Origin: a virus
Length of the DNA stretch: 33,817 bases
Strand: one strand, 5' to 3'
Virus record (IMG/VR): IMGVR_UViG_3300032053_000280
Location: 1-33,817 of that record
A program made the translations under genes and the position numbers. The notes beneath the pieces were generated by a model, which saw nothing but the letters and a program-made list of their open reading frames with translations, did not search any database and was not told the origin of the DNA. Below, piece by piece: positions 2,865-28,787 of the stretch (positions within the stretch are counted from its first letter, which is position 1; each line of letters begins with the position of its first letter).

Positions 2865-2902
2865 GTAAATATAATAAAAATTCTTGATATAAAAAAATAT
2901 TT
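2865..2902 (-). promoter_or_regulatory. Phage consensus promoter for the giant RNA
   Basis: The minus strand has a T-tract, TATATCAAGA, then TATATTTAC with exactly 14 nt from the start of TCAAGA to the start of TATATTTAC. Ten other copies in the window have the same spacing. The -7-like element matches the Bacteroidota TAnnTTTG consensus. The transcript would start near 2858. Confidence 0.75.
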
Positions 2903-2925
2903 AGCTATTTATTATCAAAATATTT

Positions 2926-3915
2926 TCATTTTCGTAGCATTTTAGTATTTTTATTTCTTATGCATGCTCCCTTTCCACTACATTGTCTAGAACAATATTC
3001 ATTATAACATTCATTCCCGCAAATTTTACATATATTTCTATTTATTTTATGAGGATTTCCTTCATATAATTCAATATAGTTTTTACCATACTTTTTTTCT
3101 ACAAAATTAAATATTTCTTTTAAATCATCATGAAATAAAACTATTAATTTAATTTCTTTAGGAAATTGACTTAATTTTTCTTTAGTTTGACTATCATTCC
3201 ATCCCTTTATTTCATAGTAATCATTTCCTATTTTAAAATCTGGATAAAATTTACGTTCTTTTTTATTAAAAATATATTTAAAAAAAATATTATTATTTCT
3301 AGTAAATTTAATATTTTTATCTAAATGATATATTACCCATGCTAATTCATATGTAGATTGGCACCAATATCCTTTATACCATCCGCATTTTCCTCTTCCT
3401 GAATTAATTTTATATCCTCCAGTTTTTCCTTTTAATGAATTGGACAATTTTTTTAAATATTCAGGTGATTTATGATAAGCTTTACTACATTCAATAGAAC
3501 AATATTTTTTATTTTTAAATTTTGTTTCAAACGCATTATTACAAGTTTTACATATTTTTTTATAGGGTTCTTTCGTTAAAGCTTTTCTTATTTTTTCGCC
3601 TATTTCTTTTCTATTATTTTTCGTACTAAAACCCTTTGCACATTCTTTAGAACAAAATCTAGCAGAACCATATTTTTTAAAAACTTCTTTTACACAATAT
3701 TCACAAAAATAATGATATTGTTTTTGTTCTTTATCGTGTGTTTTTAAATGTTTTTTATAATTAGAGCCTTTTATTTCTTTATTGCATAATTTGCATTTTA
3801 TTTTTGTATTTCTTGCTTTAATTAAACCATGCAAATGAATACAATGCATAGAACAAAAATTTTCACTTTTAATTTTAAAATTTATAGAACCACAAATTAT
3901 ACAAACTTTTGACAT
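2926..3915 (-). CDS. Homing endonuclease-like protein, zinc fingers plus PD-(D/E)XK domain
   Basis: A 330-residue lysine-rich protein. The open frame extends to 4008 but would overlap the tRNA at 3984-4071, so the ATG at 3915 (MSKVCIICG) is used. Five or six CxxC-type zinc knuckles fill the N-terminal two-thirds and recur at the C-terminus (ICKICGNEC and CSRQC). Between them lies a PD-(D/E)XK-type core, FYPDFKIGNDYYEIKGW, where D, E and K are the likely catalytic residues. The protein resembles Vsr-like nucleases and phage homing endonucleases. It is inserted between the giant RNA and a tRNA pair, a typical site for a selfish endonuclease gene. Nuclease activity is inferred. Confidence 0.65.
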   Translation of the reverse strand: MSKVCIICGSINFKIKSENFCSMHCIHLHGLIKARNTKIKCKLCNKEIKGSNYKKHLKTHDKEQKQYHYFCEYCVKEVFKKYGSARFCSKECAKGFSTKNNRKEIGEKIRKALTKEPYKKICKTCNNAFETKFKNKKYCSIECSKAYHKSPEYLKKLSNSLKGKTGGYKINSGRGKCGWYKGYWCQSTYELAWVIYHLDKNIKFTRNNNIFFKYIFNKKERKFYPDFKIGNDYYEIKGWNDSQTKEKLSQFPKEIKLIVLFHDDLKEIFNFVEKKYGKNYIELYEGNPHKINRNICKICGNECYNEYCSRQCSGKGACIRNKNTKMLRK

Positions 3916-3983
3916 ATCTTTTTGTATTATATACTTAAGTATAGCAAAAGTTTTACGAACTATTTTATATAAATTGATTGTAG

Positions 3984-4071
3984 TACTATGAGTGGGATTC
4001 GAACCCACGAATCGATTATTATCGAACTAGTTTGAGAAGCTAGTCACTTTGAACCACTTGTATATCATAGC
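3984..4071 (-). tRNA. Class II tRNA, anticodon CUC by position (Glu?)
   Basis: 88 nt: acceptor GCTATGA/TCATAGT, D-stem TAC/GTG with GTGG in the D-loop, T-arm GTGGG-TTCGAAT-CCCAC. It has a long variable arm (TCGAT/ATCGA). The anticodon arm CTAGC-TTCTCAA-ACTAG gives CUC, a glutamate anticodon, although a long variable arm normally marks Ser, Leu or Tyr. Its ends are G1-U72 and A73. Amino-acid identity is uncertain; being a tRNA is not. Confidence 0.7.
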
Positions 4072-4081
4072 ATTATATTTG

Positions 4082-4166
4082 TACTATGGATGGGATTCGA
4101 ACCCATGAATCGATTACCGAACTAGCTTGAAGGGCTAGCTACTTTGAGCCGCTTGTATACCATAGC
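4082..4166 (-). tRNA. Class II tRNA, anticodon UUC by position (Glu?)
   Basis: 85 nt, close paralogue of the tRNA at 3984-4071: acceptor GCTATGG/CCATAGT, D-stem TAC/GTA, variable-arm stem TCG/CGA, T-arm ATGGG-TTCGAAT-CCCAT. The anticodon arm CTAGC-CCTTCAA-GCTAG reads UUC by position, with an unusual C33. It shares G1-U72 and A73. The pair looks like a tandem duplication followed by anticodon change. Confidence 0.7.
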
Positions 4167-4174
4167 ATGTTAAT

Positions 4175-4290
4175 TTCAGTGAGTCTTTAAGAAAATAGAC
4201 TCACCGTGAAACTCTAGTCTATCACAAGAATGCCAACCCATTCTTCAACTGTTTTGACGCTTGATTGGAGACGCTTTATCAGTTGTTTAA
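4175..4290 (-). ncRNA. Hairpin-rich spacer RNA between tRNAs
   Basis: A non-coding stretch with strong inverted repeats: gtgagtct/agactcac (4179-4186 with 4197-4204), agaatg/cattct (4227-4232 with 4239-4244) and caactg/cagttg (4246-4251 with 4280-4285). It lies inside the minus-strand tRNA transcript. It may be a processing spacer or a small structured RNA. Fold deduced by eye. Confidence 0.4.
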
Positions 4291-4302
4291 AATAATGTTA
4301 AA

Positions 4303-4422
4303 AATCGTCACGAGGAATCAAACCTCGGTATTTCTTTGCCGGACCATTACTATAGATTAGATTTCCGTTTAATTTATAGATTTCACTACCTGTTGAATAT
4401 TAAGCAAACTCAGGATGACGAT
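4303..4422 (-). ncRNA. tRNA-like RNA with enlarged interior (120 nt)
   Basis: The ends form a perfect 7-bp acceptor (ATCGTCA/TGACGAT) and a perfect T-arm (CGAGG-TTTGATT-CCTCG). The D-arm position has CCTG/CAGG around an 18-nt loop. The anticodon region is expanded to about 60 nt with CTATA/TATAG. At 120 nt it is too long for a normal tRNA. It could be a tRNA with a small insertion or a degenerate one. It is first in the transcript driven by the promoter at 4461. Confidence 0.5.
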
Positions 4423-4435
4423 TAAATATCTTTAT

Positions 4436-4444
4436 TCAAAGAAC
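4436..4444 (-). promoter_or_regulatory. boxA-like element
   Basis: The minus strand reads GTTCTTTGA shortly after the promoter at 4461-4498 and before the tRNA-like RNA. It is a partial match to the boxA-like leader at 2831 (GTTCTTTAA). Confidence 0.4.
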
Positions 4445-4460
4445 TTTTTTTATTTAATAG

Positions 4461-4498
4461 TTAAATATAATCAATTTTTCTGAAATAAAAAAATAATT
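4461..4498 (-). promoter_or_regulatory. Phage consensus promoter for tRNA unit
   Basis: The minus strand reads T-tract, TTATTTCAGA, then TATATTTAA with the invariant 14-nt spacing. It points toward the tRNA-like RNA and the class II tRNA pair. Confidence 0.75.
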
Positions 4499-4504
4499 TA
4501 CCAT

Positions 4505-4822
4505 TTATTTTTCTGTTTTAATAATATTTTTATTTATAAAAGTAGAAAGTTTTTTTGCTTCTTCCGCACTTAATATTACTTGATCTTCATACATTTTTGC
4601 AGTTTTAAGATAATTAAATATTATTTTTAATCTTTCCCAAAAACTTGGCTTTTTATTATATTTGCCGTATGTAAACATTGCTAACCAAAATTCTTGTCTA
4701 ACTTGTGTAGTATTTCTTTCGGAATCATCAAAATACTCAACATCGTGTGTAATTTGTAATAAATGAGTACCGCATTCGCACTCAATATATTCTTTTTTAG
4801 TTTCATCTCTTGTTGTTATCAT
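4505..4822 (-). CDS. Hypothetical protein, 105 aa
   Basis: Starts MITTRDETKKEYIECECGTHLLQITHDVEYF. The CECGTHLL segment resembles a short phage protein family with a CxCGxH metal-knuckle motif, but I cannot name it. An aromatic, tryptophan-containing middle (FWLAMFTYG, SFWERLKIIFNYL) is followed by a polar tail. It lies between tRNA-Tyr and the promoter at 4461, so it may be read from the upstream cold-shock/tRNA-Tyr transcript. Function unknown. Confidence 0.6.
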   Translation of the reverse strand: MITTRDETKKEYIECECGTHLLQITHDVEYFDDSERNTTQVRQEFWLAMFTYGKYNKKPSFWERLKIIFNYLKTAKMYEDQVILSAEEAKKLSTFINKNIIKTEK

Positions 4823-4838
4823 AATCTTTAATTTTTTG

Positions 4839-4907
4839 TGCCGACGGAAGTATTCGAAACTTCAAGCTAAGGTTTTACAGACCTGTCTTCTGCCCTGGAT
4901 CGTCGGC
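4839..4907 (-). tRNA. tRNA-Tyr(GUA), short variable loop
   Basis: 69 nt: perfect acceptor GCCGACG/CGTCGGC, T-arm GAAGT-TTCGAAT-ACTTC. The anticodon arm CAGGT-CTGTAAA-ACCTT reads GUA, and A73 follows. The variable region is 5 nt and the D-arm is poorly paired, although bacterial tRNA-Tyr is normally class II. Confidence 0.7.
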
Positions 4908-4909
4908 GT

Positions 4910-4970
4910 ATGCAGTCTCTCCTGCTGTCACGCATCCTTGTTTTACTATCATCGGGTGCGTTTCCGATCC
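4910..4970 (-). other. Structured leader between csp gene and tRNA-Tyr
   Basis: The minus strand has ATCGG/CCGAT, ACGCA/TGCGT and GCAG/CTGC inverted repeats in about 60 nt just after the cold-shock stop codon. It is GC-richer than its surroundings and may be a processing or terminator structure. It could be a decayed tRNA. Confidence 0.3.
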
Positions 4971-4976
4971 ATTCGA

Positions 4977-5192
4977 TTATATCAATTTAACGTTGATTGC
5001 GTTTAGGCCTTTAGGGCCTTCTTTCAAATCGAATTCGACATCGTCGTTTTCGTTGATAGTATCCACACACCCGGTTACATGGCAAAAATATTCTTTTGTT
5101 GAATTAGAATCAGAAATAAATCCAAACCCTTTTTGTGCATTAAAAAATTTTACTTTACCATTCAATTTTGTTGTTGTTGTTTTTTCACTCAT
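4977..5192 (-). CDS. Cold-shock domain RNA-binding protein
   Basis: A 71-residue single OB-fold cold-shock domain with the classical order: LNGKVKFFN strand, RNP1-like KGFGFI (residues 21-26), RNP2-like YFCHVT (35-40), and DDVEFDLKEGPKGLNAINV at the C-terminus. Length is typical of CspA-family proteins. These proteins bind single-stranded RNA or DNA and melt secondary structure. Here the gene is embedded in a region making highly structured RNAs, which suggests, but does not prove, a role as RNA chaperone. Assignment to the fold is secure. Confidence 0.9.
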   Translation of the reverse strand: MSEKTTTTKLNGKVKFFNAQKGFGFISDSNSTKEYFCHVTGCVDTINENDDVEFDLKEGPKGLNAINVKLI

Positions 5193-5231
5193 TTTATTCT
5201 TTATTTATTTTAATTAATATAAACGATATAT

Positions 5232-6206
5232 TTATATTTTACATTTATTCATATTTGTGTAATCTTTATTAGTTATCATTATATAGTTGTAGTTATTAGC
5301 AATAGTAGCTTTTCTTTTTTCTTCAATTTGTTCTTTATCTTTTTCAGCAAGATAAGAATTTTTGCATTCAACTATAAGATTCAAAGAAGGAATATAAAAA
5401 TCTGGAAAATAATAATGTTTCTTTCCTTCAAACATATATTTTATTGATTTTGCGTTTATTATATCTGGATATTTATCATAATATTTTTCTAAAAAATCTA
5501 ATTCATAAGAACCTCTATAATAAACATCAGTATTTTTATATTGTTTTAATTTAAATGCAGATTTTTGTTGTTTCTCAAAAATTTCTTTATTTTGTAATGG
5601 ATTTTCTACACCATATTTTTTAATATATGCGTACTTTATTTTATTTTTTACTTCTTTAGATTTAAATGGATTATCTACTCCAAGATTGTTTAAATAAGTT
5701 TGTTTAACTTTTTCTCTAAATTCTTTTGTTTTAAAAAAATATTCTACACCATATTTATTTAAACATGTTTGTTTAGACTTTTCTATATTAACATAATTTT
5801 CATTACCATATTTTTCTTTTATGGTTTGTTTCTTTTTTTCAGTGTTCCAGCCAGATTTTACATCATGATTTTTTAAACAAGTTTCTTCTTTTTTCTTTTT
5901 TATTTCTTTAGATTGAGATACATATTCTACACCATATTTATTTAAACATGTTTGTTTAGTTTTTTCTAATGAACATTTTATTGAACAGGTTTCTTTGTAT
6001 CCATATCGAAAATTTGAATATGTTATTTTTACTCCACATACTTTACATTTATCATCATTTTCTTTTTTTAACCATTTATCATAATATTCCTTTGTATTAT
6101 TATGATTAATATTAATGTGTTTACTTAATTCCCTTAAATTTTTATATAGTGTATCGCATTCTTCACATATAAATAAACCTTTATTTGTTTTTCTAAATTC
6201 TTTCAT
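5232..6206 (-). CDS. Homing endonuclease-like protein, repeat-rich with C-terminal PD-(D/E)XK domain
   Basis: A 324-residue protein. It has an N-terminal C2H2-like finger (ICEECDTLY...HININH), a CxxC/CxxxC pair, then five to six copies of a KYGVENP-like repeat (NKYGVEYVS, NNLGVDNPFKS, KKYGVENPLQNKE) of the kind found in phage homing endonucleases. The C-terminus has YYRGSYELDFLEKYY and YFPDFYIPSLNLIVECK, a PD-(D/E)XK nuclease core. It is a paralogue of the plus-strand gene at 21109-21900 with near-identical ends, but it carries extra repeats. It sits between the cold-shock gene and tRNA-Pro, consistent with homing into the tRNA array. Confidence 0.7.
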   Translation of the reverse strand: MKEFRKTNKGLFICEECDTLYKNLRELSKHININHNNTKEYYDKWLKKENDDKCKVCGVKITYSNFRYGYKETCSIKCSLEKTKQTCLNKYGVEYVSQSKEIKKKKEETCLKNHDVKSGWNTEKKKQTIKEKYGNENYVNIEKSKQTCLNKYGVEYFFKTKEFREKVKQTYLNNLGVDNPFKSKEVKNKIKYAYIKKYGVENPLQNKEIFEKQQKSAFKLKQYKNTDVYYRGSYELDFLEKYYDKYPDIINAKSIKYMFEGKKHYYFPDFYIPSLNLIVECKNSYLAEKDKEQIEEKRKATIANNYNYIMITNKDYTNMNKCKI

Positions 6207-6255
6207 ATAAAATTATATCTTTTTAATTATATGATTATAAATTGATTAAGTTTTG

Positions 6256-6328
6256 TCGAAGATGTGCGATTCGAACGCCTCCAAATGCTCCCAAAGCATT
6301 TATGCAACCAAGTTACACCTCATCCTCG
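6256..6328 (-). tRNA. tRNA-Pro(UGG), weak T-stem
   Basis: 73 nt: acceptor CGAGGAT/ATCTTCG with one G-U pair (C1-G72 as in Pro tRNAs), anticodon arm AATGC-TTTGGGA-GCATT reading UGG, T-loop TTCGAAT. The T-stem has only three good pairs, so the tRNA may be decaying. The discriminator is A73. Confidence 0.6.
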
Positions 6329-6333
6329 TTAAA

Positions 6334-6433
6334 GCATATTTTGTTAAATTTAAGTCCTCTCAAAATATGCAAAACCGCTGACTATTTGTTATATACTGCA
6401 CAACTGAACAGTCTGCAGGTGAAGAAACAAATA
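6334..6433 (-). ncRNA. Hairpin-rich spacer RNA between tRNA-Leu and tRNA-Pro
   Basis: Two strong hairpins: a perfect 10-bp stem gcatattttg/caaaatatgc (6334-6343 with 6361-6370), and a nested stem tatttgtt/aacaaata (6383-6390 with 6426-6433) enclosing ctgca/tgcag and actg/cagt. No ORF fits. Such regular pairing is unlikely by chance and suggests a structured or processed RNA. Confidence 0.45.
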
Positions 6434-6439
6434 CCTTCG

Positions 6440-6514
6440 TACTCCTGGTGGGATTCGAACCCACACTTTATAGATCTTAAGTCTATTGCCAACTGCCGAT
6501 TGGGCTACAGGAGC
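6440..6514 (-). tRNA. tRNA-Leu(UAA), short variable loop
   Basis: 75 nt: acceptor GCTCCTG/CAGGAGT, D-arm with TTGG, anticodon arm ATAGA-CTTAAGA-TCTAT (fully paired) reading UAA, variable loop AAAGT, T-arm GTGGG-TTCGAAT-CCCAC, A73. It is a close relative of tRNA-Leu(CAA) at 1794 and shares G1-U72. The 5-nt variable loop is atypical for bacterial Leu tRNA. Confidence 0.8.
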
Positions 6515-6519
6515 ATTAG

Positions 6520-6685
6520 TGCTGCAGTACATTTACGAATATACATTTCCTTTCCGTTTCGTACTTGGCGACTTTCATTAGTCGAGGCAGCATTTAAAAA
6601 GTATTAGAATGTACCATATTTGTTACACTTAACGAGAATTCCTTCCAACCGCTGATTCTCACCCATTGGGTAGGGCTAATACTTT
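6520..6685 (-). ncRNA. Two-domain structured RNA between two tRNA-Leu genes
   Basis: Domain one is closed by tgctgc/gcagca (6520-6525 with 6587-6592) and contains a CGACT/AGTCG hairpin. Domain two is closed by a perfect 10-bp stem ctaatacttt/aaagtattag (6676-6685 with 6598-6607). It contains GAGAAT/ATTCTC, ACCC/GGGT and GTTA/TAAC hairpins, which makes a multi-branched fold. No coding potential. Possibly a small relative of the giant RNA, or tRNA-derived. Confidence 0.5.
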
Positions 6686-6687
6686 AG

Positions 6688-6761
6688 TACCCAGAGAGGG
6701 ATTCGAACCCTCAAACATTAGCTCCTAAGGCTAACCGATTTGCCATTTTTCGTATCTGGGC
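6688..6761 (-). tRNA. tRNA-Leu(UAG), short variable loop
   Basis: 74 nt: acceptor GCCCAGA/TCTGGGT (G1-U72), D-stem CGA/TCG, anticodon arm TTAGC-CTTAGGA-GCTAA reading UAG, variable loop TGTTT, T-arm GAGGG-TTCGAAT-CCCTC, A73. It is the third Leu-anticodon tRNA here with class I architecture. Confidence 0.8.
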
Positions 6762-6768
6762 ATATTAC

Positions 6769-6784: not shown

Positions 6785-6793
6785 ATTTATTTG

Positions 6794-6868: not shown

Positions 6869-6873
6869 ATTAA

Positions 6874-6924: not shown

Positions 6925-6926
6925 AG

Positions 6927-7008: not shown

Positions 7009-7638
7009 TTATTTTATTTTTCTTCCTAATCTCCAATTATCTGGAATTAAATCTCCTTTATGAATTTTTTTATTTTCTTTTCCGTTTGTTATCCAACAAG
7101 TTCCATATTGAGAATTTTTTTCTCCTTTTTGTGGATGATTTATACTGCGAAATAATTTCATTTTAATTTTTGTTTCTTCTTTATGTTTTCTTCCAGTCCA
7201 ATCGCATGATTTAAGTGTGCCTTCTTCACGCATTTTTTTCCATAAAATAGACATTTTTTTACGATGTATTTTTTTATATTCTTCATTATTCCAAACAATT
7301 TTTCCTATTATTTGATAATGAATTCTATACCATTCTTCTCCTTTTCCATTATTACCTCCCCTTCCGCCTTTCATTAAATTATAACAGCTAGGATCTATTA
7401 TTAATTCTTCATTAACAAATTCTGATTCATAATGTAATGCTTCATTATATGTATCAAAAAATAATAGAATTTCTTTTTTAAATTTTTCCTTTCCATATTT
7501 ACTAATAGCATATTTTAATCGTTTGCCTGATCCTAAATACCCATCTTCTAAATAATCTGTACTATGTACGCCATAATAAAAATTTCCATTTATTAAATTT
7601 TCTGTTTTATAAAAATAATTAAATTTTGCCATAAACAT
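7009..7638 (-). CDS. GIY-YIG-type homing endonuclease (Seg-like)
   Basis: A 209-residue protein. The N-terminus has the GIY-YIG pattern in phage form: FYKTENLINGNFYYGVHST followed by DGYLGSGKRLKYAISKYG. After it come EILLFFDTYNEALHYESEFV and the conserved end CYNLMKGG. The C-terminal half has a SRSINHPQKGEKNSQYG-like NUMOD element (FRSINHPQKGEKNSQYGTCW). Domain order and length match T4 Seg-family nucleases, which home into tRNA or intergenic sites. It lies between tRNA-Gln(CUG) and tRNA-Gln(UUG). Met3 (7632) is an alternative start. Confidence 0.8.
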   Translation of the reverse strand: MFMAKFNYFYKTENLINGNFYYGVHSTDYLEDGYLGSGKRLKYAISKYGKEKFKKEILLFFDTYNEALHYESEFVNEELIIDPSCYNLMKGGRGGNNGKGEEWYRIHYQIIGKIVWNNEEYKKIHRKKMSILWKKMREEGTLKSCDWTGRKHKEETKIKMKLFRSINHPQKGEKNSQYGTCWITNGKENKKIHKGDLIPDNWRLGRKIK

Positions 7639-7681
7639 ATTTTTATCTATATATTCATAGTTCGATATCTAATAATGATAG

Positions 7682-7908: not shown

Positions 7909-7924
7909 CAATATGTCAATGAAC
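7909..7924 (-). promoter_or_regulatory. boxA-like leader of the long tRNA operon
   Basis: The minus strand reads GTTCATTGACATATTG directly downstream of the promoter at 7931 and just before tRNA-Cys. It repeats exactly at 6769-6784. Confidence 0.5.
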
Positions 7925-7930: not shown

Positions 7931-7970
7931 ATTAATATAATACTTTTTTCTGAATTAAAAAAATATTTTA
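7931..7970 (-). promoter_or_regulatory. Phage consensus promoter for the long tRNA operon
   Basis: The minus strand reads T-tract, AATTCAGA, then TATATTAAT with the 14-nt spacing. It is the weakest -7 match of the set but is in the expected place upstream of tRNA-Cys. Confidence 0.65.
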
Positions 7971-10200: not shown

Positions 10201-10725
10201 TTATTTTATAGTTAATTTATTTATTGCTTTTTTAATTGTTTCTGCAGCCCTTATAGTTTCATCTAATTTATTTAAAAAATAACTATTAATAGGATCATAT
10301 TTATTACTAAAATCTACAGAAGATTTTTTAATAGGAGGATTAATTTCTTTATCATAATGTAAATTATAAATTTCTTCAAAATATATTTTAATATCACGAA
10401 ATGAATATAAAGTTGAAATTCCCGCGCTTGTAACTCTATATAATCCTGTTACTATACTAGGAATTTTCATACGACTTTCATAAAATAATTGATCTGCTCC
10501 TAATTTTACACAAAGTTTAATAAGTTGTATTCTTGCTTCTATATTTTCAGCATGATGATATATAGCAGTTTTTAAGAAATTATTATATGATTTATCTTCA
10601 TCAGCCAGTTTGTTGTATTCTGGTAAATCTTTTAACAAAGTATAAAGAGGTCCTATTTTCATATCATGAATTGGATCTGATTCATCTGTAAATTTTTCAT
10701 TAATATACTCTCGTATAAGTTTCAT
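10201..10725 (-). CDS. Putative internal head protein with T4-like capsid-targeting N-terminus
   Basis: 174 residues, first gene of the operon. Its leader MKLIREYINEKFTDESDPI matches that of the 132-aa protein at 8515, with INE at residues 8-10 where a T4-type prohead protease would cleave. The body (residues 25-110) looks like an ankyrin-type helical repeat (NNFLKTAIYHHAENIEARIQLIKLC then VKLGAD), possibly one or two repeats. The end is basic. Ankyrin-like proteins delivered with DNA would be candidate host-takeover factors; this is inference. Confidence 0.6.
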   Translation of the reverse strand: MKLIREYINEKFTDESDPIHDMKIGPLYTLLKDLPEYNKLADEDKSYNNFLKTAIYHHAENIEARIQLIKLCVKLGADQLFYESRMKIPSIVTGLYRVTSAGISTLYSFRDIKIYFEEIYNLHYDKEINPPIKKSSVDFSNKYDPINSYFLNKLDETIRAAETIKKAINKLTIK

Positions 10726-10765
10726 GAATTTTCTTTATTTTATATATTCATGAATTTAGACAGCA

Positions 10766-14346: not shown

Positions 14347-14745
14347 TTATTTCCAGGGTAAATGTGTCTCTGTAAAAAGCTTAGTATTTTCAGTTTTTGT
14401 ATTTACATTTTTTGTTTCTTCTTGTATAACATTATTAGGTTTATCTTGAGTCCCTTGATTACCCTGAATTCCTTGAGTTCCTTTTTCTACAGAAGGGTTT
14501 TCAACTTCTGGAAAATTAAACTTATAAATATCACTGGGAATAGATGTTTTTATAGGCAATTGTCTTACAACAAATAAAGACGGTTTACCCACAATATATT
14601 GAACAAATTCCCATGTTCCAGATAATTCTACAGTTCTAATTATTTCAGTAATTAAAATTTTTAAATCAGTAAAATTTATTCCTTCCAATTGTTTTGTTTC
14701 AGGAATTTTGTTTTGTAATTCTTGTACAGTTAATACGTGTGTCAT
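14347..14745 (-). CDS. Hypothetical protein carrying a short collagen-like tract
   Basis: 132 residues. The N-terminal 80 residues are a compact domain (TVQELQNKIPETKQLEGINFTDLK; GTWEFVQYIVGKPSLFVVRQ). Residues 89-100 read GTQGIQGNQGTQ, the same G-X-Q repeat that fills the fibre gene at 32908 onward, and the rest is polar and Asn/Thr/Glu-rich. The repeat links this minus-strand gene to the fibre, by sequence exchange or by a shared structural role. The TGA stop/ATG arrangement is tight with the 148-aa gene upstream (1 nt). Confidence 0.55.
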   Translation of the reverse strand: MTHVLTVQELQNKIPETKQLEGINFTDLKILITEIIRTVELSGTWEFVQYIVGKPSLFVVRQLPIKTSIPSDIYKFNFPEVENPSVEKGTQGIQGNQGTQDKPNNVIQEETKNVNTKTENTKLFTETHLPWK

Positions 14746-14746
14746 G

Positions 14747-15193
14747 TTATAATAAGTTTAATTGTTTTTCATCATTTTCAGAAAATTGTTTCCAATCTAG
14801 ATTATCAATTGCGCATTCTTTACATAATGTAGTAATCCAACCTCGTGTTTGACCTACATCCTTTGTAGAACCACATTTTTCACACATATATTCTGATAAA
14901 GTTTCAGCAAAACTTATCACTGCATATTGTGCTTCAGAAGCTCCTTGAGTATAAAATCTTAATCCACCAAATTTTTCTTTAACTTGTACTGCAGTTATTT
15001 GTGGGTATTTTCTTTTGGAATTATTATTATCAGTATTCCATTGAAGATCGCTACATAATCTATCAATTAACCAATACCAGCCATCTCCACAATCAAAACC
15101 CCAACACATTGCTGTTTTTTGCATTGATTCATTTCTATCTACAAATATCTTAGGATATTTTTTGCATAATTTTTCATCAAGTTCTTTTTTCAT
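14747..15193 (-). CDS. Conserved phage protein with CxxC...CxxC zinc site
   Basis: 148 residues. The ordered motifs are CGDGWYWLIDRLC, QVKEKFGGLRFY and CEKCG...GWITTLCKEC (C104, C107, C124, C127). I recognise this block order from a widespread phage/prophage protein family of unknown function. The four C-terminal cysteines should bind zinc. It precedes the collagen-tract gene in the same unit. Confidence 0.65.
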   Translation of the reverse strand: MKKELDEKLCKKYPKIFVDRNESMQKTAMCWGFDCGDGWYWLIDRLCSDLQWNTDNNNSKRKYPQITAVQVKEKFGGLRFYTQGASEAQYAVISFAETLSEYMCEKCGSTKDVGQTRGWITTLCKECAIDNLDWKQFSENDEKQLNLL

Positions 15194-16793: not shown

Positions 16794-17264
16794 CTATATA
16801 AGTTTGTTAATAATTTCATCTTTTTTCCCACTTTGTTTTATACCTTCCATAAATCTTGAAGTATGCACAACGTGCATCGGTGATATCCATGTTCTTAAAT
16901 CTAAATCATCTATAGCTACCCATGAACCTGGTTTAAATTTATCAACATGATTTAATATTTCTTTAGCACGAATTTCTTCCAACAGTTGCATTGTTTTATA
17001 TTCATAAGATTCTGTTATATCTATAGGAGCTTTATTTATTTTCGCAAATTCTACAAATATCTCTTGCAGATTTTTTAAAGAATAATGATCCTTCCAATCG
17101 CTTGATATAACAATTTCTGCATCTGTTTTTTGTAAAATTTCATTAAGCGTATCTACTGCTTTTTTATTAAAACGATGTACGTATCCCCATTTAGTTAATT
17201 TTGGGTGAATTTCACTTCCTAGAGATAACACACCATCTATATCAAGATAGATATACTTTTTCAT
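16794..17264 (-). CDS. HAD-superfamily hydrolase (Swiss-army-knife RNA-repair type)
   Basis: 156 residues. Motif I is YLDIDGVL (D8, D10), motif II lies in EIVISSDWK, and the last motif is WVAIDDLDL. The SDWK block and short cap match the HAD domains I know from RNA-repair-associated proteins, where they may remove 3' or 2',3'-cyclic phosphates. A tRNA-rich phage would benefit from such repair, but the substrate is unproven. Its ATG lies 2 nt after the TATATTTAC promoter element (17267-17275), so the mRNA is probably leaderless. It terminates with TAG. Confidence 0.75.
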   Translation of the reverse strand: MKKYIYLDIDGVLSLGSEIHPKLTKWGYVHRFNKKAVDTLNEILQKTDAEIVISSDWKDHYSLKNLQEIFVEFAKINKAPIDITESYEYKTMQLLEEIRAKEILNHVDKFKPGSWVAIDDLDLRTWISPMHVVHTSRFMEGIKQSGKKDEIINKLI

Positions 17265-17266: not shown

Positions 17267-17302
17267 GTAAATATAAACAAAAAATCTGAGACTAAAAAAT
17301 AT
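17267..17302 (-). promoter_or_regulatory. Phage consensus promoter, leaderless HAD gene
   Basis: The minus strand reads T-tract, AGTCTCAGA, then TATATTTAC with 14-nt spacing. The start codon ATG at 17264 begins 2 nt after the element, so the transcription start falls on or next to the start codon. Confidence 0.75.
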
Positions 17303-20737: not shown

Positions 20738-20983
20738 TTACCATAGTATAGATTCGTTTACAATTTTTATTGATGTTATAATTGGCGTCTTTTTCTTTTG
20801 ATTATTAAGACTTCCATCTTCAGATAAAACATCTTTACGTTCATTTGCCATTTTATATTTAATAAAAACCGTTGCTTTTTCTGCCGCTGCATTATAATCA
20901 TCAGCCACTACATATATTAAAGTATGATTATAACTATATTCATCATTTGAAAATTCAACTATAAATAATCTTTTTTCTTTCAT
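20738..20983 (-). CDS. Hypothetical protein, 81 aa, first gene of small-protein operon
   Basis: MKEKRLFIVEFSNDEYSYNHTLIYVVADDYNAAAEKATVFIK looks like a ferredoxin-like or DUF-type alpha/beta domain. It is the first gene after the consensus promoter at 21011, with a leader of roughly 25 nt. The downstream small-protein genes to 18.7 kb probably share this transcript. No specific family recognised. Confidence 0.6.
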   Translation of the reverse strand: MKEKRLFIVEFSNDEYSYNHTLIYVVADDYNAAAEKATVFIKYKMANERKDVLSEDGSLNNQKKKTPIITSIKIVNESILW

Positions 20984-21010: not shown

Positions 21011-21046
21011 GTAAATATAATCAATTTTTCTGAAATAAAAAAATTT
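21011..21046 (-). promoter_or_regulatory. Phage consensus promoter for the small-protein operon
   Basis: The minus strand reads T-tract, TTATTTCAGA, then TATATTTAC with 14-nt spacing. The core is identical to the copies at 26113 and 4461. It lies 28 nt upstream of the ATG at 20983. Confidence 0.8.
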
Positions 21047-21108: not shown

Positions 21109-21900
21109 ATGAAAGAATTTAGAAAAAATATACAAGGATATTTTATTTGTGAAGAATGCAGAATATTTACAAAAAGACGATGTGGATTAAGTAAACACAT
21201 TAATGTTTTTCATAATGGTGTAAAAGTATATTTCGATAAATGGATAAAAGATAATGATGAAGATAAATGTAACATATGTAAAAAAGAAACAACATATCGT
21301 AATTTTAAATCAGGGTATAAACAAACATGTTGTAAAAAATGCGAAAATAAATATAAGCATAATAAATCAAAAGAAGCGTGTCTTAAAAAATATGGTGTTG
21401 AATATCCTTTGCAAAATAAAAATATAAATAATAAACAAAAACAAACAATGAATAATAATTGGGGTGTTAATAATCCTGGTCAATCTTCAATATTAAATAT
21501 TAAAAAGAAAAATACTTTCATTAAAAAATATAATTGTGAAAATCCTTTACAAATTAAACAAATATTTGAAAAAACACAAAAGTCTAGCTATAAATTAAAA
21601 AAATTTCGCGATACTAGTATTTATTACAGAGGCACCTATGAATTAGATTTTTTAGAAAAATTTTATAATATATACCCTGATATACAAAATGGCCCAACAA
21701 TAAAATACATTTTTCGGGGAATAAAAAAAATTTATTATCCTGATTTTTATATTCCTTCTTTAAATTTAATTATTGAATGCAAAAATTCATATTTAATAAA
21801 AAAAGATATAGAAAAAATAAAAGCTAAAGAAAACGCTGTATTATTAAATGGCTTTGATTATTACATAATAATTGATAAAAATTATGAAAATTTATTCTAA
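21109..21900 (+). CDS. Homing endonuclease-like protein, PD-(D/E)XK, plus strand
   Basis: 263 residues. Finger-like N-terminus (ICEECRIFTKRR...HINVFH), CNICKKE/CCKKC pairs, two or three KYGVEYPLQ-type repeats, then YYRGTYELDFLEKFY and the nuclease core YYPDFYIPSLNLIIECK. It is clearly paralogous to the minus-strand gene at 5232-6206 but has fewer repeats. It is the only plus-strand gene in the first 27 kb and overlaps the convergent winged-helix gene by 9 bp. Both facts fit a recently inserted selfish gene. It lacks the consensus promoter. Confidence 0.75.
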   Translation: MKEFRKNIQGYFICEECRIFTKRRCGLSKHINVFHNGVKVYFDKWIKDNDEDKCNICKKETTYRNFKSGYKQTCCKKCENKYKHNKSKEACLKKYGVEYPLQNKNINNKQKQTMNNNWGVNNPGQSSILNIKKKNTFIKKYNCENPLQIKQIFEKTQKSSYKLKKFRDTSIYYRGTYELDFLEKFYNIYPDIQNGPTIKYIFRGIKKIYYPDFYIPSLNLIIECKNSYLIKKDIEKIKAKENAVLLNGFDYYIIIDKNYENLF

Positions 21901-22572
21901 AATTAATCCTATACCCGATATATTTTTAATAGATAATTTTATTTTATTGTTTTTTAACGTGTTGCGAAGATAAGTGATGTACACATCACAAGATCTTCCA
22001 GCAAAATAATCGTTAGGTTTTCTCCAAACTTTTTCAAGAATAACTTCTTTTTTAACAACTTCACCATAATTTATTGCAAGAATTTCAAGTATACCTCCTT
22101 CTTTTGCAGAAAGTTTTTTAATTTCCTTTCCTTTATGATATAATATTCGTCTAGTTGGATCATATACACAATTTGCAAATTCTATTTTTTCATGCATTTT
22201 TGCTGTAAGTTTTTGAAGAGTCTGAAAATTTTTAATATATTTTTGAATATTAATTAAAATCATACTTACAAGATTTTCATAAGGTAACGATATTTGCATT
22301 AATATATCTGTTGAGGGCGTATAATTTAATGCAGGAGCAGTAATTAAACCTACTATAGGAACATATGGATTTGATTTTTTAATAAAATCTGTAGCTTTAT
22401 TAAAATATAAAGAATCTTTTGATAAAATATAAGCGTCTATTCCTCCGTTTTCAATTTGTTCAAATAAAACACGCTCTGCTTTAGCCAAAATTATTTCATA
22501 GCCAGATTCTTTTGAAAATTTAATGAATATATTTAGTAGTTCATTATTTTCTGTATTGATAGCAATTTTCAT
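21892..22572 (-). CDS. Response-regulator-like winged-helix transcription factor
   Basis: 226 residues. The C-terminal 95 residues match the OmpR/PhoB winged helix: LSAKEGGILEILAINYGEVVKKEVILEKVW, then YFAGRSCDVYITYLRNTL and a terminal NISGIGLIL hairpin. The N-terminal 120 residues keep a receiver-like pattern (strand, helix, GGIDAYILS), but I see no clear phosphoacceptor aspartate pocket. It is probably a phosphorylation-independent or atypical regulator. A consensus promoter lies directly upstream. It is a plausible phage-encoded switch for middle or late genes; that role is inferred. Confidence 0.75.
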   Translation of the reverse strand: MKIAINTENNELLNIFIKFSKESGYEIILAKAERVLFEQIENGGIDAYILSKDSLYFNKATDFIKKSNPYVPIVGLITAPALNYTPSTDILMQISLPYENLVSMILINIQKYIKNFQTLQKLTAKMHEKIEFANCVYDPTRRILYHKGKEIKKLSAKEGGILEILAINYGEVVKKEVILEKVWRKPNDYFAGRSCDVYITYLRNTLKNNKIKLSIKNISGIGLILE

Positions 22573-22593
22573 ATGTAATTTGTTAATGTATTA

Positions 22594-22630
22594 CAAATAT
22601 AAACAAAAATTCTGAATAAAAAAAATATTT
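22594..22630 (-). promoter_or_regulatory. Phage consensus promoter for the regulator gene
   Basis: The minus strand reads T-tract, ATTCAGA, then TATATTTG with 14-nt spacing. This copy matches the Bacteroidota TAnnTTTG element exactly. It is 22 nt upstream of the ATG at 22572. Confidence 0.8.
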
Positions 22631-24760: not shown

Positions 24761-24785
24761 AATTTTATTTATTAATACATTCATA

Positions 24786-25079: not shown

Positions 25080-25194
25080 TTTATTATTTTTTATTTAACA
25101 AATCTTCTTTTTCTCTTTCTTTTTCTCTTTCTTGTGAATATGTAATATTTAATTACAATGCTATGTTTTTTATTATTTACAGCAAAATGTAAAT

Positions 25195-25470
25195 TTATTT
25201 TGTAGATTTAAGTTCTTTTTGAATAGTTTTTTCAAGTCTATATTGACAATACTTGCAATTTCCTTTATGAACTAACTTATCATCTTGTGTATTATATATA
25301 CTATGATACATAATATATTCACAAGAATCGATTGTAATTTCTTTATATAATAAAGTTTCTGCTTTATTTTCTGAATTAGTATTTTTTGATACACAAATCC
25401 AGAATATTAAAATAAAAAGTACTAAAATTGCACACCCTATAATGAATTCAACAATAGTTTTTTTAATCAT
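25195..25470 (-). CDS. Membrane protein with cysteine knuckle, 91 aa
   Basis: One N-terminal transmembrane helix (FIIGCAILVLFILIFWIC) is followed by a polar domain containing DSCEYIMYHS and HKGNCKYCQYRL. The HKGNCKYC block is familiar from Bacteroidota/phage small proteins, but I cannot name the family. It overlaps the SWIM-domain gene upstream by 8 nt. The 115 nt to the next gene downstream hold only a purine/pyrimidine-rich tract with no ORF. Confidence 0.6.
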   Translation of the reverse strand: MIKKTIVEFIIGCAILVLFILIFWICVSKNTNSENKAETLLYKEITIDSCEYIMYHSIYNTQDDKLVHKGNCKYCQYRLEKTIQKELKSTK

Positions 25471-25795
25471 TGTATTTTAATTTTATTTGTTCTACATGTT
25501 TGCATCTGCCTTTAAAGGAAAACCCCATACATGTACAAGACCAATATCTACCACTAAATCTAACTTCATATTTTTCTCCAGTTCTGGAAGAAACAACAGT
25601 TTCAGACAATGGTGATTCTGGATTAATAGAAAATTTATCAAGTTCAAATGTTTCTTTTTCCCAATGTTCTTTAACTTCATCAAGAGTGGTATCGCTGGGA
25701 ACTACATGCCATCCTGGAACTACATAAGTAATATTATTAAATGTTACTAACCCAGGATTCATAAGAGATTTAAATTTTACATCTGAAGGTATCAT
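25463..25795 (-). CDS. SWIM zinc-finger protein
   Basis: 110 residues ending in a SWIM finger: C87 and C89 in WSCTCMGFSF, C98 and H100 in GRCKHV (CxC...CxH). SWIM modules mediate DNA or protein binding. The N-terminal region, with YVVPGWHVVPSDTTLDEV and PLSETVVSSRTGEKYEVRF, is beta-rich, which suggests a DNA-repair or mobile-element-type domain. It is the gene most likely to bind nucleic acid in this block. Family assignment from motif. Confidence 0.8.
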   Translation of the reverse strand: MIPSDVKFKSLMNPGLVTFNNITYVVPGWHVVPSDTTLDEVKEHWEKETFELDKFSINPESPLSETVVSSRTGEKYEVRFSGRYWSCTCMGFSFKGRCKHVEQIKLKYND

Positions 25796-25799
25796 ACAA

Positions 25800-26090
25800 T
25801 TAGTCGTTAAAAATCATAAATTTAAAATTATCTTTAGATTGGTATATCCAGTATTGAACTTCACCTTCTTCATCCTTTTTTTCAAATTTATAAAAGAAAG
25901 TTTTTCTATGAGAATTTTCTTTAATCGTAACATCAAAAGAAGAAAAGAACGAAGTAGTAACTCCTGCACATTCTAAATCTGATGCATCACATGAAAAAGT
26001 TTTGTCAGATTTATCATAACAAAGCAAACCTTGTGTAGAAGAGTTTACTTCTCTCATTGATTTTTCCTTATGGTTATAAATAATATTCAT
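25800..26090 (-). CDS. Hypothetical protein, 85-96 aa
   Basis: An ORF open from 26126 would begin with TTG inside the promoter; the consensus promoter at 26113 rules that out, and the ATG at 26090 (MNIIYNHKEK) or 26057 (MREVNSSTQG) is the start. The body is beta-rich: FSCDASDLECAGV, FFSSFDVTIKENS. Two cysteines are close together. Function unknown. Confidence 0.55.
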   Translation of the reverse strand: MNIIYNHKEKSMREVNSSTQGLLCYDKSDKTFSCDASDLECAGVTTSFFSSFDVTIKENSHRKTFFYKFEKKDEEGEVQYWIYQSKDNFKFMIFND

Positions 26091-26112
26091 AAATATTATA
26101 TTTAAATTATAA

Positions 26113-26148
26113 GTAAATATAATCAATTTTTCTGAAATAAAAAAATAT
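26113..26148 (-). promoter_or_regulatory. Phage consensus promoter
   Basis: The minus strand reads T-tract, TTATTTCAGA, then TATATTTAC with 14-nt spacing. It sets the 5' limit of the 25800 gene and rules out the upstream TTG start. Confidence 0.8.
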
Positions 26149-26177
26149 TTTTAATAGAATTTTAGCAAAAAAGAAAA

Positions 26178-26227
26178 AAGTTTGCAGACTTGGGGTAGGT
26201 AGATTAGCGTAATACATCTGCAAACTT
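26178..26227 (-). terminator. Terminator for the 70-aa gene
   Basis: An 11-bp stem AAGTTTGCAGA/TCTGCAAACTT around a 28-nt loop, followed on the minus strand by TTTTTTCTTTTTT. The long loop is unusual for a terminator and may be structured. Confidence 0.65.
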
Positions 26228-26232
26228 AAGTA

Positions 26233-26445
26233 TTAACGAATTTTTCTTATTAATTGATGTTTAGCCAATTTTACAAAAACATTACAAGATTCTGTGATAT
26301 TATAAAGATGTAATTCATCTTTTGCCGCATCAATATTTTTAATTTGTACTAAATCTTTTGTGTGAGTCATATAAACTGATCCATTTTCCAAATCTTTAAC
26401 ATCAATTACAATAGGTTCTTTTAATTCTTTCATACTTTGTTTCAT
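26233..26445 (-). CDS. Hypothetical protein, 70 aa
   Basis: MKQSMKELKEPIVIDVKDLENGSVYMTHT is acidic, followed by LVQIKNIDAAKDELHLYNITES and a basic end KHQLIRKIR. The alternating strands VQIKNI and ELHLYNI suggest a small beta domain. It is flanked by the terminator below and the tRNA-like element above, so it may be transcribed from the promoter at 26697. Start Met1 or Met5. No family recognised. Confidence 0.5.
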   Translation of the reverse strand: MKQSMKELKEPIVIDVKDLENGSVYMTHTKDLVQIKNIDAAKDELHLYNITESCNVFVKLAKHQLIRKIR

Positions 26446-26472
26446 AAATATATTTATTTTAATTAATCTTGG

Positions 26473-26551
26473 CTGCCTCAGAAAGATTCGAACTTTCAGC
26501 CTTTTCAGGTTCCATATCTCTCAACAGGCTATCATCTGAAGGAGTAAAGCA
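26473..26551 (-). ncRNA. Degenerate tRNA-like element with Gln-type ends
   Basis: 79 nt: acceptor TGCTTTA/TGAGGCA with U1-A72 and G73, and a perfect T-arm GAAAG-TTCGAAT-CTTTC. The interior is not a normal cloverleaf. AGCCT/AGGCT closes a 23-nt loop in place of an anticodon arm, and the D-arm is not clear. Possibly a tRNA remnant or a tRNA mimic. It is isolated from the main tRNA array and driven by the promoter at 26697. Confidence 0.45.
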
Positions 26552-26563
26552 GTATATCGTATA

Positions 26564-26674
26564 TTATCTAAATAATGGTAAAATAAATGGCCACATCATT
26601 AATGTAGATATTAAAATAATAATTATAGCAAGCATTAATACTATTATTCTATCAGATTTCGTGTAATATTTCAT
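26564..26674 (-). CDS. Tiny membrane protein, 36 aa
   Basis: The frame from the ATG at 26674 reads MKYYTKSDRIIVLMLAIIIILISTLMMW, then PFILPLFR and a stop. There is one transmembrane helix after a short basic start. The consensus promoter lies 23 nt upstream, which supports expression. Size and topology suggest an inner-membrane micropeptide, such as an antiholin or exclusion peptide; unproven. Confidence 0.55.
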   Translation of the reverse strand: MKYYTKSDRIIVLMLAIIIILISTLMMWPFILPLFR

Positions 26675-26696
26675 ATAAGTATTTTAATTCTTATAG

Positions 26697-26736
26697 TTAA
26701 ATATAATAAAAATTCTTGATATAAAAAAATATTTTA
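26697..26736 (-). promoter_or_regulatory. Phage consensus promoter
   Basis: The minus strand reads T-tract, ATATCAAGA, then TATATTTAA with 14-nt spacing, the same TCAAGA variant as the promoter of the giant RNA at 2865. It drives the micropeptide and tRNA-like element. Confidence 0.75.
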
Positions 26737-26757
26737 CTATTTATTTTTAACAATTTT

Positions 26758-27528
26758 TCAATTTTTTATAAATTTATTCCAGTATTTATCTGGATATAAT
26801 ATCTCATCTAACATTGGCGGTTTAATTCCTACTATAAGTTCAATTCCTTTTTTTATACCGTGTTTATCTAAAAAAGATTTAACATATTCAGCTGAATACT
26901 GATACATTATTTCATATTTATTTTCTTTATCTGTTATTTCATCTAACGTTTCAGGAATATAATCATTACCAACAATGCATTCTCCTATTTTTATAGGTAC
27001 GTACATACATATTCCTTCTTCAATAAATTTAGCACCAAAAGAATTTCGAGGAATCATATTAAAATTATAGTATTCTGGACATACATACATACTGTCTAAT
27101 CTCATTTCCATTATTACTTGATTAAAATAAAAATGTGTTAATTCATGAAAAATAACTCCTTTTACAAATGTATTAGCTTCTATTATAGTACGCCTTTTAT
27201 ATTTGGATAACATCGAAACTTCATATCCAATAAATTTTTCTTCATTTGTTATAATTATTTCAGAAGAACTTTTTTCTGATATACAAAAACCTAAAGCATC
27301 ATCACCATCAGTATATTGGCTTAAAACATCTATAGAAATATATACGTCGTATAAAGAATCATGTACAAAATTTTGATATTCAGTTATAAGTTTTGATTCA
27401 TTTTGTTTTACATACATTTCAATTCCTTTAGATGTAGGTCTACCATCTTTGCGTAATGGATAAATTTTTTGTGATAATAACGAAAATGATAAAAGGAAAA
27501 ATAATATGAAAGTAAAATATTTTGTCAT
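26758..27528 (-). CDS. Secreted HExxH zinc metallopeptidase candidate
   Basis: 256 residues. An upstream TTG at 27534 lies in the promoter, so the ATG at 27528 is the start. Residues 1-19 are a signal peptide (FILFFLLSFSLLSQK). Zinc-site motif HELTH (H128, E129, H132) lies in VKGVIFHELTHFYF, and a downstream FIEEGICMY offers the gluzincin glutamate (E170/E171). The protein is thus a plausible exported peptidase. Its start codon lies 3 nt after the TATATTTG element, so the mRNA is leaderless. Substrate unknown; a role in host envelope or exclusion is possible. Confidence 0.7.
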   Translation of the reverse strand: MTKYFTFILFFLLSFSLLSQKIYPLRKDGRPTSKGIEMYVKQNESKLITEYQNFVHDSLYDVYISIDVLSQYTDGDDALGFCISEKSSSEIIITNEEKFIGYEVSMLSKYKRRTIIEANTFVKGVIFHELTHFYFNQVIMEMRLDSMYVCPEYYNFNMIPRNSFGAKFIEEGICMYVPIKIGECIVGNDYIPETLDEITDKENKYEIMYQYSAEYVKSFLDKHGIKKGIELIVGIKPPMLDEILYPDKYWNKFIKN

Positions 27529-27531
27529 ATA

Positions 27532-27570
27532 CAAATATAAACAATATTTCTGAGATTAAAAAATAAATTT
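27532..27570 (-). promoter_or_regulatory. Phage consensus promoter, leaderless metallopeptidase gene
   Basis: The minus strand reads T-tract, TAATCTCAGA, then TATATTTG with 14-nt spacing. The ATG at 27528 follows after 3 nt. Confidence 0.8.
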
Positions 27571-27605
27571 AAATAAAAATGAAAATAATACTATACCTAT
27601 ATCTA

Positions 27606-27692
27606 ATCGCGTATTGTACGCGTACGCGAGTCGCGACACGATCTAGAGACTTGATATTCCTAGAGGCTTAAGTACTTGAGTTATATGATCAC
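27606..27692. other. Palindrome-dense GC-rich island at the divergence point
   Basis: About 50% GC over roughly 60 nt in a genome region of about 25%. It contains GTACGCGTAC, TCGCGTA/TACGCGA as an inverted repeat, GTCGCGAC, TCTAGA, CTTAAG, AAGTACTT and TGATCA. No ORF fits. It lies between the leftward and rightward halves of the window. It may be an operator, a replication origin or a site for a dimeric protein. Confidence 0.5.
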
Positions 27693-27780
27693 TTTTAAAA
27701 AAGTTTCGCATAGAAATTAATTTTTTGTTAATTTTATATTAATTTTTTGTTAAAGTTTTTTGAAAATAATTGCTAAAATA

Positions 27781-27812
27781 TTTTTTTATGTCAAGAATTA
27801 TAATTATATTAG
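27781..27812 (+). promoter_or_regulatory. Phage consensus promoter, plus strand
   Basis: Plus strand: T-tract, TTATGTCAAGA, then TATATTAG beginning 14 nt after TCAAGA. It lies about 40 nt upstream of the RNase H-like gene at 27856 and is the first of the two plus-strand copies. Confidence 0.65.
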
Positions 27813-27855
27813 TACTGAAATTAAATATATAAAGAAATTGGTTTAATAAAATATA

Positions 27856-28368
27856 ATGGAAGCTTTAAAATTTAAAAAAATAGATGGTACTGCTATCGAT
27901 AACGTAGAAAAATACGTAAAGGATTGGGCTAAAGAAAACATTCATGGAAAAATTATAGTTGGGTGCGATAGCCAAATTCATGGAAGGCGAATTAAGTACA
28001 GTGTTGTTATTGTAATGCATAGAATTGATAGAATGGATGTTGGCCATGGTTGTCATTTACTTATATGTGATGTGTGGGAAAAAAGAATGAATAAATCACA
28101 AACAGAAGAAATGCCAAGCAAATTATGGCGCGAAGCAGAATTCGCTTTACAGACAGCAGAATTAATAAATGGTTCAGATGAATATTTTAAAAAATCAATA
28201 GAAGTTCATTTAGATTTTAATTCTGTAGCTACTTCTAATTCTCATGAAAATTTATCTAATAAAATGTATGCATCTGGATTAGGCTTATTGAGCGGTTATG
28301 GTTATAAAGTTTATGGAAAACCTTTTGCAAAAATTGCCAGCAACGTTGCAGATCATTTTTGTAGATAA
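27856..28368 (+). CDS. RNase H-fold protein, YkuK/DUF458-like
   Basis: 170 residues. The first strand IIVGCDSQIHGRRI supplies D38, a later strand EVHLDFNS supplies D120, and VADHF near the end gives D166: the acidic set expected of an RNase H-like fold. The layout and length match the YkuK family (PF04308 type), whose activity is unclear. Nuclease function would need testing. It is followed 18 nt later by a lipoprotein gene on the same strand. Confidence 0.75.
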   Translation: MEALKFKKIDGTAIDNVEKYVKDWAKENIHGKIIVGCDSQIHGRRIKYSVVIVMHRIDRMDVGHGCHLLICDVWEKRMNKSQTEEMPSKLWREAEFALQTAELINGSDEYFKKSIEVHLDFNSVATSNSHENLSNKMYASGLGLLSGYGYKVYGKPFAKIASNVADHFCR

Positions 28369-28386
28369 CATTAAATTTATTATATT

Positions 28387-28722
28387 ATGAAAACATTTAT
28401 TTTTTTATTATTTTTATTTTTGACGTGTTCATGTTATTCTGTAGTAACAAAGTATCTTTTTAAAAAAACTTATGCTGCAGCAGATAGCAATATTGTTATT
28501 TCAGATATATATGAACAATGTAGTTTGTATCATCTTAAAGAAACCCCGATAAATAATTGGATTGTTAATGAATATTCTTCAGATACTTCTCAATTTGTTC
28601 AAAGAATGATTAGACATGAAGAAAGTAAAAAAGAGATATATGATTTTATCTATTCAAAAATCATATATCCACATAAAACATATTATGAATTTAAAATTAG
28701 ATATACTGGTAAAAGAAAATAA
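28387..28722 (+). CDS. Lipoprotein, 111 aa
   Basis: MKTFIFLLFLFLTCSCYSVV has a signal sequence with lipobox-type LTCSC; the lipid-modified Cys would be residue 14 or 16. The mature part is polar, with YLFKKTYAAADSNIVISDIYEQ and a basic end YTGKRK. A terminator follows at 28746. No family recognised; an exclusion or envelope role is possible. Confidence 0.65.
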   Translation: MKTFIFLLFLFLTCSCYSVVTKYLFKKTYAAADSNIVISDIYEQCSLYHLKETPINNWIVNEYSSDTSQFVQRMIRHEESKKEIYDFIYSKIIYPHKTYYEFKIRYTGKRK

Positions 28723-28745
28723 AATTTAATTTTTATTAAATAAAG

Positions 28746-28787
28746 TCTGAAATATTTTTTTATTTCAGATTTTTTTATTATATTTAC
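28746..28787 (+). promoter_or_regulatory. Terminator hairpin fused with consensus promoter
   Basis: TCTGAAATA/TATTTCAGA is a 9-bp hairpin followed by TTTTTTTATT, a terminator for the lipoprotein gene. The right arm and T-run are also the upstream part of the promoter: TATTTCAGA then TATATTTAC (28779-28787) with 14-nt spacing. The ATG at 28790 follows after 2 nt, so the mRNA is leaderless. Confidence 0.75.

Follow-up and report, generated by a model that had tools for sequence, protein, structure and literature searches.

Predicted P1 promoters combining a T-tract and a TCRRR box in T4-like jumbo phages of likely Bacteroidota hosts

We analysed a 33.8-kb viral DNA fragment (IMG/VR record IMGVR_UViG_3300032053_000280, positions 1 to 33,817; G000 in our set), referred to below as the window, which carries eleven copies of a repeated signal that we name P1. 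Judged from the sequence, these eleven signals are real promoters of a huge Bacteroidota phage. The reading that we prefer, and consider probable, is that P1 serves as the early/middle promoter of a clade of T4-like jumbo phages and is read by the host RNA polymerase (RNAP) carrying the primary sigma factor sigma-ABfr, while late genes use a second class, P2. An initial sequence-only reading of the window had described the repeats as a phage promoter motif with invariant spacing. All eleven copies were indeed present at the coordinates it gave, nine on the minus strand and two on the plus strand, and in 11 out of 11 the TC-containing box started exactly 14 nt ahead of TATATT[TA]. Genes were called as simple open reading frames (ORFs) beginning with ATG, and the contigs used for comparison were themselves fragments.

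Recurrence of P1 in the window and in related phages

A consensus search allowing at most three mismatches recovered 10 of the 11 sites, against 0.55 expected from shuffled sequences. When scored with a weight matrix of 56 positions, the eleven sites reached 33.7 to 55.6, and the next match in the window had a score of 15.0; in 30 Markov-3 controls there were 0.03 matches per window at score 14 and none reached 16. As no other window score exceeded 15, the original list of copies is complete. The matrix was built from sites of the window and of G001, a 405-kb syntenic relative, and thus partly from the sites being scored, so that the decisive evidence is the independent one, namely the spacing peak in G001 and the matrix matches in other contigs. 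G001, which is independent of the window, contains about 31 P1 sites with the 14-nt spacing; TCAGA, TCAAGA, TCAAA and TCAAG each peaked at 14 in a spacing scan, and scrambled boxes gave no peak. The same matrix scored many sites in G004, G007, G017, G019, G021 and G031, with reversed-matrix controls near zero. P1 was found in no fewer than seven further contigs.

In the window and in G001, the strong P1 sites fall between genes, and almost all of them are oriented into the following gene. Five orthologous gene groups retain P1 in two to four genomes (G001, G004 and G005 among them), and the orthologous promoters share 78% identity within the motif, compared with 54% in the upstream and 42% in the downstream flank. 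Intergenic position, orientation and conservation before orthologues thus support the assignment of the motif to a promoter class, as far as sequence can. The distance between the T of TATATTT and the downstream ATG is 11-12 nt at 10 sites and mostly 26-38 nt at the others; both offsets are compatible with a start 4-5 nt past the -7 element. Given the shorter offset, several transcripts should be leaderless; leaderless mRNAs are predicted in the window for the ATGs at 17264, 27528 and 28790, each 11 nt past that T.

The highest-scoring site is the minus-strand promoter at 2865-2898 (score 55.6; TATATTTA, box TCAAGA), followed by a boxA-like GTTCTTTAAC. Two further predicted minus-strand promoters belong to tRNA operons: 4461-4494 (49.4; box TCAGA) to a tRNA-Glu pair, with a boxA-like GTTCTTTGA after it, and 7931-7964 (47.7) to a tRNA-Cys/Gln/Phe/Leu array, with a boxA-like GTTCATTGACATATTG 25 nt 5' of tRNA-Cys. 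On the same strand, the site at 17267-17300 (39.4) would drive the HAD-fold gene 16794-17264, whose putatively leaderless arrangement is kept in three genomes (window, G001 and G004). The site at 22593-22626 (38.3) precedes an OmpR-type winged-helix gene (21892-22572) and is kept before its orthologues in G001, G004 and G005. Genes 20738-20983, 25800-26090 and 26758-27528 are preceded by the minus-strand sites 21011-21044 (50.6), 26113-26146 (46.6) and 27531-27564 (33.7), the last predicted to give a leaderless transcript; the site at 26697-26730 (minus strand, 52.6) has no called gene of at least 40 aa within 250 nt downstream. The two plus-strand candidates lie at 27780-27813 (50.2; box TCAAGA), ahead of an RNase H-like gene (27856-28368), and at 28754-28787 (45.1), ahead of gene 28790-29263, also predicted to be leaderless; the latter site belongs to a hairpin subclass (TCTGAAATA-TTTTTT-TATTTCAGA).

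Architecture of P1 compared with host and Lak promoters

The anatomy of P1 was derived from 42 sites of the window and G001, with index 0 being the T of TATATTT, set at -12 (following PMC6847099 and PMC9723704). The full motif is AAAATAA - AAATATTTTTTT - N3 - TCRRR - N9 - TATATTTRC. AAAATAA lies at about -54 to -48 and is followed by the A-tract/T-tract AAATATTTTTTT at about -41 to -30, the T-tract itself covering -36 to -30. TCRRR (the TC box) occupies -26 to -22, within the spacer, and its C carries 2.5 bits of information; TATATTTR spans -12 to -5 and precedes a C at -4. Several details of the sequence-only reading had to be adjusted. Its -7 box, TATATTTR, is found in nine of the eleven sites, the other two being those at 7931 (TATATTAA) and 27791 (TATATTAG), and its TCAGA and TCAAGA boxes are a subset of TCRRR (TCAGA, TCAAG, TCAAA, TCGGA, TCAGG). 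The agreement with the Bacteroidota -7 consensus holds for TAnnTTT but not for the G at -5, which occurs in only about a third of the sites; TAGATTT variants are frequent in G019 and G031. The idea that TCAGA stands in place of the -33 TTTG was mistaken, as it is the T-tract that occupies -33, where TTG is found in 0-2 sites per genome.

P1 proved to be virtually phage-specific and nearly absent from host genomes. A strict P1 pattern occurred in 83 viral stretches and once in 84,980 prokaryote genomes. For a looser pattern, the count was 62 in about 1.25 Mb of phage sequence against 4 in 148 Bacteroidota genomes. The host -7 consensus is TAHHTTTG, with the transcription start site (TSS) 4-5 nt downstream; the G at -5 is nearly invariant in F. 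johnsoniae, and the host rule allows no G at -10 (PMC6847099). P1 resembles the sigma-ABfr promoters of Bacteroidota (-33 TTTG / -7 TAnnTTTG) in the position of its TAnnTTT, its AT-rich upstream region and a predicted TSS about 5 nt downstream, but differs from them in having a T-tract at -33, an additional TCRRR at -26 and mostly A at -5, as well as in its near-absence from hosts. Two general host counterparts were considered and rejected: a hint of TCR at -26 in a smaller set (22/283 versus 6.3 elsewhere) was not replicated in 80 genomes, and a T-tract at -33 was found in 9/410 cases at that offset, not above other offsets.

The 9-11 tRNAs of the window are accompanied by genes for homing endonucleases, for enzymes acting on nucleotides and RNA, for a T4 RNase H-type exonuclease and for a clamp loader of the T4 type (gp44) that is closest to that of Prevotella Lak megaphages (44.6%). 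The gp23 capsid, gp20 portal, T4-type (gp17-type) terminase and S77 protease are markers encoded in G001, not in the window; G001 also encodes UvsX. At the DNA level, the sole match of the window to named relatives was one of 200 bp to 735-kb huge phages. The Mahaphage clade, which unites Lak with the 634-735-kb genomes, has predicted Bacteroidetes hosts (PMC7162821). From these features we infer that the window comes from a T4-like jumbo phage near the Lak/Mahaphage clade, of which it is a fragment, with a host probably belonging to Bacteroidota.

A related architecture was identified here in Lak itself. In 221 kb of Lak-A1 (MK250016), 25 of 27 GTATCTTTG sites carry A-TTTTTTT-ATTT in the same register as P1 (A at index -25, T at -24 to -18), followed by purines. 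The -7 box is of the perfect host type (TGTATCTTTG; TATCTTTG) and the TC box is mostly absent. The Lak GTATCTTTG promoters thus share with P1 the register of the T-tract, a stretch of purines behind the T at index -14, proximity to genes and terminator-like hairpins fused to the T-tract; they differ in having A or G, not C, at index -13 and TGTATCTTTGTA as the -7 element. In LR756501, index -25 is A in 14/14 sites and most sites have a T-tract, and LR756502 has TTTG-like elements with TATATTTG. The simplest evolutionary series would lead from the host-type TTTG to the T-tract, and from there to the T-tract with a TC box. As Lak combines its T-tract with a perfect host -7 box, the most likely reader is the host sigma-ABfr.

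The late-type class P2 and candidate readers of P1

The genes behind P1 in the window include tRNA operons, the OmpR-type regulator and HAD, RNase H-like and phosphatase-like proteins; in G001 they include an NAD-dependent DNA ligase, and in other contigs an RNA ligase, ribose-phosphate pyrophosphokinase, phosphoesterases and an ECF-type sigma factor. P1 was not seen ahead of the structural genes examined, and it also has upstream elements, unlike the -10-only late promoter of the T4 type. An unbiased k-mer enrichment revealed P2 through GAATATAT, present in 41 upstream regions of G001 versus 3.5 expected. P2 takes the form GAATATATAA or GATATATA, with GAATATATAAAATAA in G001 and GATATATA in G017 and G019, and precedes genes for the tail sheath, the head protease and giant proteins as well as others, some of them homing-endonuclease-like. 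In the window, a predicted late-type P2 promoter, GAATATATAAAATAA, lies at 10735-10749 (minus strand) upstream of gene 10201-10725, and a P2-like GAATATATAG at 7642-7656 (minus strand) upstream of the homing endonuclease gene 7009-7638. G001 encodes a gp55-type late sigma (phrog_234, E 4e-17), and P2 together with this sigma fits T4-like late promoters. The likeness to those promoters (TATAAATA, gp55) lies in the P2 of the relatives (GAATATATAAAATAA / GATATATA) and the gp55-family sigma; their counterpart is therefore P2, a class separate from P1. With P2 placed ahead of structural genes alongside a gp55-type sigma, P1 is most likely the early/middle class, a timing read from gene classes. Neither a third promoter class nor an early class of the host type TAnnTTTG stood clearly above controls in G001, G017 and G019.

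Drawing on the observed sequence, spacing, orientation, conservation, gene classes and near-absence from hosts, we propose that host RNAP with sigma-ABfr would recognise TATATTTR (-12 to -5) as the -7 element, with the A-tract/T-tract AAATATTTTTTT standing in for the usual -33 TTTG, and the A-rich block near -50 may behave as an UP element. TCRRR, whose constant position (-26 to -22) keeps it on one helical face, could provide a clade-specific additional contact that strengthens or licenses P1. Transcription would start about 5 nt past TATATTTR, in several genes at or within one nucleotide of the AUG, and late genes would use the separate -10-only promoter (GAATATATAA/GATATATA), presumably read by the gp55-type phage sigma. 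The dedicated phage-modified polymerase proposed earlier found no supporting sign; the Lak T-tract promoters with a host-type -7 box and the TTTG-like/TATATTTG promoters of LR756502 point to host RNAP-sigma-ABfr instead. Some observations nevertheless weigh against recognition by an ordinary host enzyme. About two thirds of P1 sites have A where hosts have G at -5, and TAGATTT, common in G019 and G031, violates the host rule of no G at -10. The TC box is no general host element either: with TTG and TAHHTTTG as anchors in 80 genomes, TCR gave 104 matches at offset 14, against 104 at offset 13 and 140 at offset 16. The relaxed -5, TAGATTT and the host-absent TC box would also be consistent with an altered holoenzyme or an accessory factor.

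What contacts the TC box can be graded only by likelihood. Direct reading by RNAP has, in our estimate, close to an even chance of being correct, and reading by some phage factor is a serious candidate that falls somewhat short of even; an activator at this box, as suggested earlier, and a phage sigma acting there are both possible candidates. The known model is the T4 middle promoter (MotA box and -10), with which P1 shares a second element, a fixed short spacing from a host-type -10 and the early/middle genes of a T4-like phage, differing in the box sequence, its position (-26, not -30), the host sigma (sigma-ABfr) and the lack of a confident MotA match. A MotA-like phage activator that binds TCRRR and recruits host RNAP-sigma-ABfr, the -33 contact being lost, would account for a box invariant in spacing, near-invariant in sequence and practically absent from hosts, for the loss of TTG at -33, for the relaxed G at -5 and for the early/middle look of the P1 genes. 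We nonetheless consider it unlikely, since no candidate activator co-occurs with the motif, Lak has the same architecture largely without the C, and no second early class was found from which an activator could be made first. In a search of 8 records that covered recognisable forms of the MotA C-domain (PF09158), nothing passed the cut-off; the best hit, in G001, had E 0.04.

The OmpR-type (PF00486) winged-helix DNA-binding protein of the window (21892-22572, minus strand) was tested as a candidate P1 factor and rejected as a universal one: it is found only in G001, G004 and G005 among the relatives and is absent from G017, G019, G021 and G031. The protein has no recognised receiver domain match and is conserved in close relatives. 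A phage factor neither MotA- nor OmpR-like, which would bind TCRRR and re-target the sigma-ABfr polymerase to T-tract promoters as a new sigma-appropriation system, is a tentative idea that we hold at less than even likelihood; to our knowledge, it would be the first such system for Bacteroidota phages.

A phage ECF-type sigma (sigma2 and sigma4) could instead read P1 and so control its own gene, in which case the T-tract would be the -35 and TATATTTRC the -10 element. Such a sigma is encoded in all five P1 contigs checked (G001, at 57428-58060, minus strand; G017, at 14494-15093, minus strand; G019, at 98777-99385, plus strand; G021; G031). In four of them (G017, G019, G021 and G031) P1 lies 34-45 nt before its start codon, which also counts against host sigma-ABfr as the reader, and 17 nt separate the T-tract from the -10. 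We regard this possibility as improbable: orthologues occur in Lak, LR756502 and LR756501, all lacking the TC-box form, the -10 is close to the host consensus and in Lak agrees with it perfectly, the sigma would first have to come from a start-up source (virion or another promoter), and the G001 gene has no P1 directly before it. The ECF-type sigma is conserved out to Lak and the 640-735-kb phages, alongside the gp55-type late sigma.

The P1 motif was not described in the literature searched, coverage of which mostly left out subscription journals and preprints, and the huge-phage papers found contained no promoter map. For studies of how huge Bacteroidota phages take over transcription, P1 and P2 may provide readable marks of early/middle and late genes in uncultured phages, usable in the nine genomes or contigs analysed here and, in a modified form, also in Lak. 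They also offer testable promoter parts for Bacteroidota and pose the question of what reads TCRRR at -26.

Terminator-like hairpins and boxA-like elements

Terminator-like hairpins on the promoter T-tract were observed at 28754-28787 of the window and in G031, G017, G007 and Lak. A perfect stem with the T-tract as its loop and the TCRRR region in its right arm occurs in 26 of 169 P1 sites, as in AGCCCGAGA-TTTTTTAG-TCTCGGG-TTTTTT, and in 25 of these 26 cases a gene of the same direction ends about 57 nt before the site. In Lak, a stem lies directly 5' of the T-tract in 9 of 25 sites, versus 0.4 in shuffled sequences. These stems would be expected if the repeats were intrinsic terminators and not promoters, but most sites have no stem, and all carry a -7 box, with bases conserved to -4, just upstream of start codons; we therefore consider the terminator explanation highly improbable. 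The predicted terminators are best read as additions on top of promoters, and a terminator and a promoter sharing one T-tract are predicted to form a compact insulation device.

BoxA-like elements resembling the host rRNA leader, GTTC[AT]TTGACATATTG, stand 23-30 nt ahead of the first tRNA in several phage tRNA operons. In the window they lie at 7924, 6784, 4444 and 2846 (minus strand), and they also occur in G004, G017, G019, G021 and G031; one host copy was found in a tRNA/rRNA-operon-like context. This suggests that the phage boxA may represent borrowed antitermination. Finally, both strands of the window carry low-complexity ORFs at positions 31000-33817, a stretch that probably holds a gene for a repeat-rich protein running off the contig.

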